From Cucumis sativus (lineage: Eukaryota; Streptophyta; Magnoliopsida; Cucurbitales; Cucurbitaceae), in NCBI RefSeq assembly GCF_000004075.3, contig NC_026660.2, positions 24,803,498 through 24,867,497 of the forward strand: a stretch of 64,000 bases of DNA. Reading direction: 5' to 3'. Below, piece after piece: positions 27,988 through 62,315 of this stretch. Each line of letters opens with the position of its first letter. Position 1 is the first letter of the stretch. Made by a program: the position numbers and the translations under genes. The notes under the pieces were generated by a model, which was not told the origin of the DNA, did no database searches, and saw only the letters and a program-made list of their open reading frames with translations.

Positions 27988-30381
27988 ATGGCATCTCTTG
28001 ATCTTCTTCTTCTCAATTTTCTCATTTCATTACTCTTTCTTTTTATCCTTTTTTACTTTTCTTCCCTCTTTCTCAAATGGAACTCACGTGGGATTCCTTG
28101 GAATTGGCCAATTTTAGGAATGATTCCGATGGTAATTCAACATATAGACCGAATTCACGACCGTATAACCGAAATCTTACAACAAACTTCTTGCACTTTC
28201 TTCTTCGAAGGCATTTGGTTCACCAACACTAGCTTGTTAATAACAGTTGATCCTTCCAATATTCACCACATCATGACCTCAAACTTCCAAAACTATCCAA
28301 AAGGTCCCGATTTCAAGTACATATTCGACGTTTTAGGAGATGGAATTTTCAATTCTGACTCCGATTCGTGGAAGAACCAACGCAAAATTGCTCAGTCTTT
28401 GATAGTTCATGAGAAGTTTTTTGAGTTCATGTGTGGAGTTGCAAAGGAGAAAGTGGAGAAAGGGTTGGTGCCAATTCTTGAGCATTTTTGTGAAAGTAAA
28501 AAAGTGGTTGATTTGAAAGATTTATTCTTGAGATTGATGTTTGATACTACCTGTACCATGGTTGCTGGATTTGATTTCAATAGTTTGTCTATTGATTTTC
28601 CTGATATTCCTTTTACTAAAGCTATGGATGACATTCAAGAAGTGATTTTTTTTCGACATTTGTATCCTAAATTTTATTGGGAGTTGCTTAAGAAGCTTGG
28701 GCTCGGTGATGCTAAGAAGATGAAAAATGGCACTGATACCATAAATCAAGTCATTGCTCACTTGATCGCTCTAAAAAAACAGCGTCTTAAACTACAACAA
28801 GAAGATGATGGTGGCGATCCTGATTTGATCACACGGTATCATTTTCGTTATACTATTATTGATTTTAATTTTGTTTAAATTAAAACATTTTAGCTCAATT
28901 ACGTAACAACTTTTACTTCTTATATTGGTAACTTTTTTATAAAAATAAAAAATTAATTTTATTTCCTCTTAATTATTTCTTACCGTAATTTGAATCTCAT
29001 TTCAGCCAAATTGATCAAAATTTCAAAGACCCCTTTTTTGAGTTTTCAGAATTTAACTTAGATTTGGTAAAAAGTAAATAGAAAAGTGACAAAAAGGATT
29101 GAGAATCAATTGGTTCTTTTATTTTTCATCTTCAGTTTTAATTTCAGAATTCAACTTAGTTCATTGTTAATAAAATACAAATTTATCTCTTTTCTAATTA
29201 TAATAATAAACTTTAAGATCATTTAATTTTATATTATTGTGACACATTTAAAAATATTGAAATTTAAATTGAAAACTGAATGAATGAATATACAAAGGTT
29301 TTCCCTTTCCAAAGATCCAATGAATAAACAAGAAAAGGAGCTTTGTTGTTATCAAATGCTAAACGTAGGCTCTTGCAATTGTCGCCAGGGCTCTAATTCA
29401 ATTCCTATACAAAATTTAAAAGCAGCATTAATAATTAATAACAACAACAACTTAAAGCCACTATTATTATTTATTAGGTATATTTAATTAGCAAAGATAT
29501 AGTTTATAAACCCACTAAATGAAATAATTGACATAAAACTAGCTTCTTAGTTGAGCTAAATTATCATGTGAATGTGAATCTCTAAGATATGGTGTGTCAA
29601 TCCTTTTATATAAATCCATATAGATTAAATTAATATTAGATTAGAAAATATCTAATCTTTTTAATTTTTCCATATTCTTATTAGGTATATGATGAATGAA
29701 CATGACGGTATCGACTATAACGACAAGTTCTTCAGGGACTTGATCTTAACCTATCTAATCGCAGGGCGAGACGGTTTGAGCATAGCTCTATCATGGCTCT
29801 TCCTTACCCTCTCGAAAAACCCCACCATAATAGCAAACATTCGAGAAGAGCTGAAAAATATACCACAAAAAGAATCAGAATCCCGAAAAGGAAAACCACA
29901 AATATTTGGCAGTGAAGAACTTAGCAACTTGGCTTACTTACATGGAGCCATATGTGAAATCCTTCGTCTCTACCCTCCAGTTGCATTTGAACACAAATCC
30001 TCGGTTGAAGCCGACACACTTCCGAGTGGCCACCTTGTGAAAGCTGGGACTAGGATCGTGCTGTCAACGTATGCATTAGGAAGAATCAAGAGTGTTTGGG
30101 GAGAAGATTGTGAAGAATTTAAACCAGAGAGATGGATTAGTGAGAAAGGGAGGATTAAAAGAGAGCCATCTTATAAATTCTTCACTTTCAATACAGGGCC
30201 GAGGTCTTGCTTAGGGAAAGAAGTGACAATTGCCCAATTGAAAATTATTTCAGCTGCAATTATCCATAATTATGACATTGAAGCTGTGGTTGAAGACAAT
30301 AATGGAATTGCTCCAGTTGCTTCTATCATACTTCATATGAAGACTGGGTTTAAGGTTAGGGTTTCTAAGAGATCATGGTAA
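27988..30381 (+). CDS. CYP96A-like: Cytochrome P450, CYP96A family (copy A)
   Basis: Membrane-bound monooxygenase of the CYP86 clan; relatives hydroxylate alkanes or fatty acids (Arabidopsis CYP96A15/MAH1 acts on wax alkanes at the ER). Exons 27988-28835 and 29685-30381, phase 2, give 514 residues. An N-terminal anchor (residues about 5-30) is followed by a Pro hinge IPWNWPILGMIP. The motifs are ExxR in EILRLYPP, FKPERW and heme-binding FNTGPRSCLG with Cys at about 458. The I-helix reads AGRDGLS: the usual AGRDTTS threonine is Gly. The intron (849 bp) splits the codon between DLIT and YMMNEHD, a place where copies C, E and F have none. First of the tandem array; its closest relative is copy B. 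Confidence 0.93.
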
Positions 30382-30642
30382 TTATGATATCATTACAAGA
30401 TTTTCAATAAGGTGCTCTTTAATTTAGACTATATATCTATACATTGTGTTATGAACTTGAGCATCAAATTATTGTTTATGTTTTATTTAATAATTTTAAT
30501 GTAAAATTTAGTATTTTCTAATTTTATACATTTTTTTGGCTCCCTCACATAAGGGTTTAAAAACTATGATCAAAGTACAAGTGGGAAAGAACAACAGCCT
30601 TCTTTTGAATCTCTACACTTAAAAAGTCGTATTCCATTAAAA

Positions 30643-60779: not shown

Positions 60780-62315
60780 ATGACTTCCATCAACTTTTCA
60801 GCTGCCATCCTTTTGGCGTCGATCATACTGTTTCTTTTCATAATTTTCTGTCGTATTTGGAGAAGGAATTTTCATGGGGCTGTTCCTTGGAACTGGCCAA
60901 TCGTTGGTATGACACCAAGTGTCGTTACTCATATCCACAGATCTCATGATCGTATTACTGAAGTCATACAAGAAGTTGGTTCCACTTTTTTTTTCAAAGG
61001 CGTTTGGTTTTCAGGTATGGACTTCCTCTTAACCGCTGATCCTTCAAATATTCACCATATTTTGAGTGCCAATTTCGAGCGATATCCAAAAGGCCCTGAT
61101 TTCAAGTATATTTTTGAAGTTTTGGGAGATGGGATTTTCAATTCTGATTCTTATGCTTGGAAGGATCAACGTAAAACAGCTCGTTCTCTAGTCCATGATG
61201 AGAAGTTTCTTCAATTCTTAGAGAAAATTACATTGAATAAAGTGAAAACAGGGATTGTTCCTGTTCTTGATGGTGTTTGTGAAAATGGGTCAGTGTTGGA
61301 TTTGCAAGATTTGTTTCAAAGATTCTCCTTTGATTCAACTTGTATGATGGTAACCGGCTTTGACCTCCAAAGTTTATCACTTGAGTCTCCTGCGGTTCCT
61401 TTTTCCAAAGCTATGGATGATGTAGAGGAAGTGATTTTTCTCAGACATTTTTTCCCTAAAAAAATATGGGAATTTCAAAAGAAACTCCAAATTGGTCAAC
61501 CTATGAGGTTGAAACAAGCTTGGAAAATCATAGATGAAACCATTGCCAAATTGATAGCCTTGAAAAGGGGGAGCTTGAAAAATCAGGTCAACAAAGAGGG
61601 AGATGAGCAAGGAAGAGGAGTTGATTTGATCGCATCATATATGATAAATAATACAAACAAAGATGATAAGTTTTTTAGAGACACTGTTTTAAATTTCATG
61701 ATTGCAGGTAGAGACACTCTAAGTTCAGCACTCTCTTGGTTTTTCTTTTGTCTTTCGAAAAATCCAACTGTCGTAAAAATGATCAGAGAAGAGCTCAAAA
61801 CAACAATTCCTTCAAACGAAGCTTGTGATCAACTGCGGATATTCTCGATGGAAGAGGTAAATAAGTTAGTTTACTTCCATGCAACATTGTGTGAAGCACT
61901 TAGACTATATCCACCGGTCCCTTTTCAACACAAGGTAGCTACGCAACATGATATACTCCCAAGTGGTCATCACATAAAACCCAAAACAAAGATTGTGTTT
62001 TCATTATATGCATTGGGAAGAATGAGTGAAGTGTGGGGAAAAGACTGCTTGGAGTTTAAGCCAGAGAGATGGATTAATTCAGAAAATGGAAAGATCAAAC
62101 ATGTGCCATCTTACAAATTCTTGGCATTCAACGCTGGACCAAGAACATGCTTAGGAAAACACGTAGCTTTCATTGAGTTGAAAATAGTAGCAGCTGCCAT
62201 TATTCATAACTACAATATTATTCAACAAACAGGACATCAGGTTGTTCCAAATGCTTCTATTATTCTTCATATGAAGCATGGATTCAAGGTTAAGGTTACA
62301 AAGAGATGGACTTGA
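60780..62315 (+). CDS. CYP96A-like: Cytochrome P450, CYP96A family (copy F)
   Basis: Intronless, 511 residues. Anchor at residues 7-25 (AAILLASIILFLFIIFC), then VPWNWPIVGMTP. Motifs: EALRLYPP (ExxR), FKPERW and FNAGPRTCLG with the heme Cys at 457. The I-helix is AGRDTLS with the threonine retained, as in copy E. The front part (EVIQEVGSTFFFKGVWFSG) is closer to copy C than to E, while the C-terminal half is almost the same as E; this mosaic hints at gene conversion. It is the last member of the array in this window; more may lie beyond. Confidence 0.94.
   Translation: MTSINFSAAILLASIILFLFIIFCRIWRRNFHGAVPWNWPIVGMTPSVVTHIHRSHDRITEVIQEVGSTFFFKGVWFSGMDFLLTADPSNIHHILSANFERYPKGPDFKYIFEVLGDGIFNSDSYAWKDQRKTARSLVHDEKFLQFLEKITLNKVKTGIVPVLDGVCENGSVLDLQDLFQRFSFDSTCMMVTGFDLQSLSLESPAVPFSKAMDDVEEVIFLRHFFPKKIWEFQKKLQIGQPMRLKQAWKIIDETIAKLIALKRGSLKNQVNKEGDEQGRGVDLIASYMINNTNKDDKFFRDTVLNFMIAGRDTLSSALSWFFFCLSKNPTVVKMIREELKTTIPSNEACDQLRIFSMEEVNKLVYFHATLCEALRLYPPVPFQHKVATQHDILPSGHHIKPKTKIVFSLYALGRMSEVWGKDCLEFKPERWINSENGKIKHVPSYKFLAFNAGPRTCLGKHVAFIELKIVAAAIIHNYNIIQQTGHQVVPNASIILHMKHGFKVKVTKRWT

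Follow-up and report, generated by a model that had tools for sequence, protein, structure and literature searches.

Within a single tandem array of cytochrome P450 genes of Cucumis sativus, the helix-I threonine has most likely been lost twice, once before copies A and B diverged (Thr to Ala, and then to Gly in A) and once in copy C (Thr to Gly), as judged from trees and reconstructed codons. The wider reading, that these two losses left threonine-less copies that are under constraint and still work as O2-dependent monooxygenases of long-chain lipids, stands in our estimation at an even chance.

The window analysed, a stretch of 64,000 nucleotides (C6:24803498-24867497), holds five intact copies (A, B, C, E and F) and the pseudogene D, and searches that covered the 226.6-Mb genome (88 contigs) added two intact copies, G and H, beyond its end (Table 1), so that the array spans seven intact P450 copies and one pseudogene. 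A preliminary description of the window had counted three genes out of five without the threonine; the three stand, but the proportion becomes 3/7 because the array continues past the window with G and H. The gene models agree with its statement that the loss spans both an intron-containing subgroup (A and B, with the intron at the same position) and an intronless one (C). Exon by exon, A and B are 49-66% identical to F, and C shares 69 to 76% identity with the threonine-bearing sister copies. When D is aligned to F, about 23 nt (length by eye) are gone where FMIAGRDT would be expected. Outside the array, the best identity to F is at most 47% in a whole-genome search in which the best 84 of 224 candidates were scored, and the array is therefore probably this genome's whole set of this P450 type. 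Along the array the copies fall into two blocks, three threonine-less ones followed by four threonine-bearing ones, a grouping that chance would give in 2 of 35 arrangements.

Table 1. Gene models, helix-I codons and further copies of the P450 array (window positions unless prefixed C6)
Feature	Position	Strand	Remarks
Copy A, exon 1	27988..28835	+	ATG start; joined frame 514 aa
Copy A, intron	28836-29684	+	GT-AG, 849 bp
Copy A, exon 2	29685..30381	+	carries AGRDGLS, EILR, PERW, FNTGPRSCLG
Copy A, codon GGT (Gly313) at the helix-I Thr place	29773..29775	+	coordinate by counting
Copy B, exon 1	33436..34286	+	joined frame 516 aa
Copy B, intron	34287-35693	+	GT-AG, 1,407 bp
Copy B, exon 2	35694..36393	+	carries AGRDALS
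Copy B, codon GCA (Ala314) at the helix-I Thr place	35782..35784	+	coordinate by arithmetic
Copy C, single exon, 521 aa, AGRDGLS	45318..46883	+	Pfam p450 E 1.6e-63
Copy C, codon GGC (Gly323) at the helix-I Thr place	46284..46286	+	coordinate by arithmetic
Copy D, inverted P450 pseudogene, frames broken	50165..51039	-	helix-I motif missing
Copy E, single exon, 511 aa, AGRDTLS	54769..56304	+	Thr312, codon ACT
Copy F, single exon, 511 aa, AGRDTLS	60780..62315	+	Thr313, codon ACT; Pfam p450 E 5.8e-66
Copy G, intact, AGRDTLS	C6:24872519-24874045		past window end; genome search with F
Copy H, intact, AGRDTLS	C6:24881085-24882590		past window end; genome search with F

Other features are interspersed with the copies. 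A tRNA-Val gene (anticodon AAC; 30642-30717, minus strand) lies just downstream of A, a full-length match to U2 snRNA (Rfam RF00004, 103.9 bits; 37411-37611, plus strand) lies between B and C, and an open frame with a Ycf2 Pfam match (E 1.7e-13; 48594-48869, minus strand), resembling a plastid DNA fragment, lies between C and D. Elsewhere in the window are a Fe-S_biosyn domain gene (2629-3042, minus strand), a Ulp1 protease fragment (11895-12257, minus strand), frames that by eye look like a receptor-like kinase (15843-18224, plus strand; the first frame, the only one scanned, gave no Pfam match) and a tandem repeat (24481-24824) with 33-bp spacing and a core about 96% alike, in which a minus-strand open frame repeats ITKYIEDKSLL.

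The cytochrome P450 family model (Pfam PF00067) is matched by C and F in direct scans, and in a genome-wide Pfam search C, E, F, G and H score over the cut-off, A and B being absent from the list when the best 92 of 508 candidates were scored. All seven intact copies carry ExxR, PERW, the C-helix WxxxR and the Cys loop, which bears out what had been said of ExxR, PERW, the Cys loop and uninterrupted frames for the five genes of the window, with A and B read as joined two-exon frames. The Gly and Asp of the O2 motif are likewise retained in 7/7 copies, and the altered Gly and acid found in CYP96T1 do not occur. The copies are probably of CYP96 type and presumably belong to the CYP86 clan; membership of subfamily CYP96A would, by the naming rule, call for 55% identity or more with its named members. 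A provisional placement in CYP96 was made by comparison with the published soybean motif row; that row, in the available part of its source, gives the hinge P-I-[I/L]-G, PERW and FNAGPRxCLG, with spacings of 53-55 from O2 motif to ExxR, 52 from ExxR to PxRx and 17 from PxRx to heme (PMC9048032). In the array, PERW is present in 7/7 and FNAGPR in 6/7, copy A having FNTGPR, and the hinge reads PILG in A, C and G, PIVG in E and F, PVLG in B and PFFG in H. The ExxR-PERW spacing is 52 in all seven and the PERW-heme spacing 17 in five, being 18 in E and F, whereas 57-61 residues separate the O2 motif from ExxR, against 53-55 in soybean CYP96. One scan each of a prokaryote and a viral contig collection gave no relatives, and the structure that AlphaFold predicted for C, built on 6 sequences, had a mean pLDDT of 46 and was too poor for use.

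Rereading of helix I confirmed, codon by codon, the motifs reported earlier for A, B and C (AGRDGLS, AGRDALS and AGRDGLS) against AGRDTLS in E and F; G and H also read AGRDTLS, and the codons are GGT, GCA and GGC in A, B and C as against ACT in all four others. The altered place is, by motif, presumably that of Thr252 in P450cam, and the acid (Asp) of the acid-alcohol pair is present in A, B and C. Helix I was read in 19 CYP86-clan-like genes; threonine occupies this place in 16 of them, the exceptions being A, B and C only, and in 12/12 of those outside the array. Eleven of these 12 came from genome-search loci and one from a later targeted 500-base read; their clan label rests on similarity to the array and on AG[R/Q]D motifs, and as the genome search scored the best candidates only, the clan may have further members here. 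The soybean CYP96 consensus, AGR[E/D]T-X for seven listed members (PMC9048032, in part; one species' description and no naming rule), agrees with E, F, G and H and disagrees with A, B and C, which contradicts the possibility, raised earlier as a refutation, that AGRDG/ALS runs throughout CYP96. On these sequences, threonine is the usual state and its loss in A, B and C is unusual, because the 12 other clan-like genes and the soybean consensus all keep it.

The available portions of three papers describe a plant P450 with Ser at the place (PMC9663428), honeysuckle P450s in which the threonine is highly conserved (PMC5600180) and durian P450s whose helix-I residues differ slightly from those of Arabidopsis (PMC8631664). 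For CYP96 itself, a helix-I residue is given neither in these portions nor in those of PMC3912173, PMC9864978, PMC11578719, PMC6220293, PMC3095325, PMC11659181 and PMC7525064. Helix-I threonine loss in cucurbit CYP96 was not found among the titles and abstract starts listed from open-licence literature, and the strings AGRDG and AGRDT brought up only unrelated papers (for AGRDT, among the matches listed). A compensating threonine at i+4 was considered as well. It is present in B and C, and the residue there is Ala in 15/15 threonine-bearing clan-like genes first read (Fisher p 0.02); a sixteenth such gene has Thr at both places, so that p, recounted by hand, becomes about 0.05. Since A has Ala at i+4 and one threonine-bearing gene has Thr there, the idea was dropped.

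In a protein tree with two CYP86A-like outgroups, A+B is supported at 99/99 and C+E+F+G+H at 94/97, just below the double cut-off, and the branching order within this intronless group varies among near-tied trees. When seven author-chosen protein trees, outgroups included, were compared, the top two placed G first with C inside the group (AU 0.59) and H first with G and C together (AU 0.58); C as the first branch of the intronless group was not rejected (AU 0.095), and C joined to A+B, the tree that a single loss would want, received AU p = 0.005. In the codon test, which was run without outgroup, the trees with C first and with C joined to A+B collapse into a single unrooted tree (AU 0.041) and cannot be separated. 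G agrees with A and B, against the remaining four copies, at 16 nucleotide sites, H does so at 14, and C, E and F at 5 each, which places C inside the intronless group. Two observations count against the two-loss reading: joining C to A+B is not rejected by the SH test (0.275), which is stricter than AU, and amino-acid sites 192, 241 and 376, of which two stay clean when both outgroups are considered, set E to H apart from C.

Under a codon model with outgroups, the A/B ancestor is reconstructed as Ala with posterior 0.97 in all three topologies and the ancestor of C as Thr with 0.81 to 0.98 over the same three. An older single loss with regain in E to H is disfavoured, since the deepest array node is Thr at 0.63 to 0.78 and Ala at 0.22 to 0.36. 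The preliminary description had left a choice between two losses and reversal by conversion; trees and codon reconstruction favour two losses, and no conversion tract was detected over the site. The longest polymorphic runs that C shares with A and with B exclude the codon, and conversion was thus rejected as the source of the Gly in C. At the codon itself C matches A at 2/3 bases and B at 1/3, and A differs at the nearest flanking sites. The longest B-C run (alignment codons 290-294, p 0.0445) lies a few codons upstream of codon 299 and is read as conservation because B and F have an identical run. Long shared runs elsewhere (F-G, 0 of 2,000 shuffles; G-H, 0.001; A-B, 0.002; B-E, 0.0025), with p values from single-pair shuffles uncorrected for 21 pairs, suggest past exchange or close kinship between array members away from helix I.

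Pairwise dN/dS lies between 0.12 and 0.30 in 21/21 pairs, with dS of about 0.60 for A/B and 1.5 to 2.2, near saturation, between the two groups. In our own GY-type branch model, whose figures are branch averages, the terminal omegas on the best topology are 0.34 (A), 0.19 (B), 0.38 (C), 0.13 (E), 0.30 (F), 0.40 (G) and 0.23 (H). Neutral evolution (omega = 1) is rejected on the branches of A, B and C alike (p 7e-4 or lower, three topologies), and the loss of function that the preliminary description proposed to recognise by dN/dS near 1 on these branches accordingly fails; to judge from substitution rates, A, B and C are constrained proteins under purifying selection, not wrecks. If the A/B ancestor already lacked the threonine, the low omegas of A and B measure constraint after the loss. 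Recent relaxation, above all in C, could hide within the branch averages. Grouped by helix-I residue, the threonine-less and threonine-bearing terminals have omegas of 0.30-0.31 and 0.24 (p 0.11 to 0.14, three topologies). A model that frees the omegas of A, B and C from that of the rest fits better with borderline significance (p 0.041 to 0.054), and separate terminal omegas beat a single one (p 0.009 to 0.02), from which the copies differ among themselves in constraint; this last result counts against the explanation that we prefer.

The best-known relative by function is CYP96A15 (MAH1), of the same family and clan, and A, B and C lack the threonine of the CYP96A consensus, given as AGRDTTS in the preliminary description. 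The available parts of four papers cite this enzyme as the midchain alkane hydroxylase of Arabidopsis (PMC3912173, PMC9864978, PMC7848009, PMC4766306). In cucumber mict mutants a MAH1 homologue, which need not be an array copy, is reported to be down-regulated and a wax alcohol to be missing, though a MAH1-like gene shows no significant change by qRT-PCR in leaf trichomes (PMC7848009, in part). Copies A, B and C are themselves most likely O2-dependent monooxygenases of long-chain lipids, in which the retained Asp would feed protons to bound peroxide by way of ordered water; by analogy, the hydroxyl of an already oxygenated substrate may offer an alternative proton route, as in P450eryF. The likely cost of the loss would be weaker coupling or a narrower substrate range, with no wholesale switch of reaction. 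We favour an oxygenase with another proton route because A, B and C keep both Gly and acid. Against this, loss without a substitute should be costly, as P450cam T252A is described to have lost effective hydroxylation, to epoxidise one substrate still and to pass electrons to H2O2 (PMC9112060, in part). P450eryF (CYP107A1), as the accessible text of PMC10741444 describes it, naturally has Ala at the place and hydroxylates, with a substrate OH as the probable proton donor, and its function is lowered when A245 is changed to Ser or Thr; it is a bacterial enzyme with a macrolide substrate, and the likeness is one of analogy, not kinship.

That A, B and C have switched reaction type, for instance to radical coupling, dehydration or peroxide-driven chemistry, with E to H staying hydroxylases, we consider unlikely. 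CYP74 and CYP79 perform unusual chemistry. They are, with CYP72 in part, the only soybean families without T/S at the place (Gly in CYP74, Asn in CYP79, T/A in CYP72; PMC9048032, in part), which favours such a switch, but all three belong to other clans and in CYP74 the whole motif differs, whereas A, B and C lost the residue inside a family whose soybean consensus has it. A parallel from the CYP96 family is CYP96T1, the noroxomaritidine synthase of Narcissus, a phenol-coupling enzyme whose O2-activation motif is altered by G322Q, D324N and T326Q (PMC4766306), and whose coupling type flips with one further substitution, Leu308 to Ala, according to the available part of a review (PMC11659181). 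The CYP96 family is thus able to change its chemistry, with a motif more altered than in A, B and C: CYP96T1 changed motif places 2, 4 and 6 and lost both acid and conserved Gly, whereas the array copies changed only place 5, which on our reading of the numbering is not among the listed changes, and keep both. All other catalytic landmarks are unchanged in A, B and C, their omegas as a group do not differ significantly, and P450eryF remains a hydroxylase without this threonine.

The indistinguishable group omegas also favour the idea that A, B and C drifted, buffered by four threonine-bearing neighbours, into hydroxylases of the usual kind with some uncoupling and gained no function, and the threonine-bearing G (omega 0.31 to 0.40) lies near C (0.37 to 0.38). 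We hold such tolerated drift to be unlikely, since the threonine-less state has seemingly been kept through the A/B split under constraint, and the same residue was lost twice in one array while 12/12 other clan-like genes keep it. Early decay, or a non-catalytic role of A, B and C, seems very unlikely. Copy A is unique at 6 sites identical in the other eight sequences (two CYP86A-like outgroups included), the highest count of the nine, the array already includes one pseudogene, D, and separate omegas for A, B and C fit borderline better; however, such unique changes also number 5 in the threonine-bearing H and 4 in B, the heme and K-helix landmarks are intact, and neutrality is rejected for each copy. 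A divided array, in which E to H oxygenate plain alkyl chains while A, B and C would need a hydroxyl-bearing substrate as proton donor, perhaps wax alcohols or hydroxy fatty acids, rests on the analogy with P450eryF and is a rather faint prospect; if true, substrate-assisted oxygen activation would have arisen twice in one plant tandem array.

The role of the helix-I threonine in P450 oxygen activation is textbook knowledge, and three intact copies without this residue beside four with it amount to a natural experiment on its worth in a plant lipid P450. The helix-I contrast between C and E bears on whether loss of the threonine marks a new surface-wax activity or drift.
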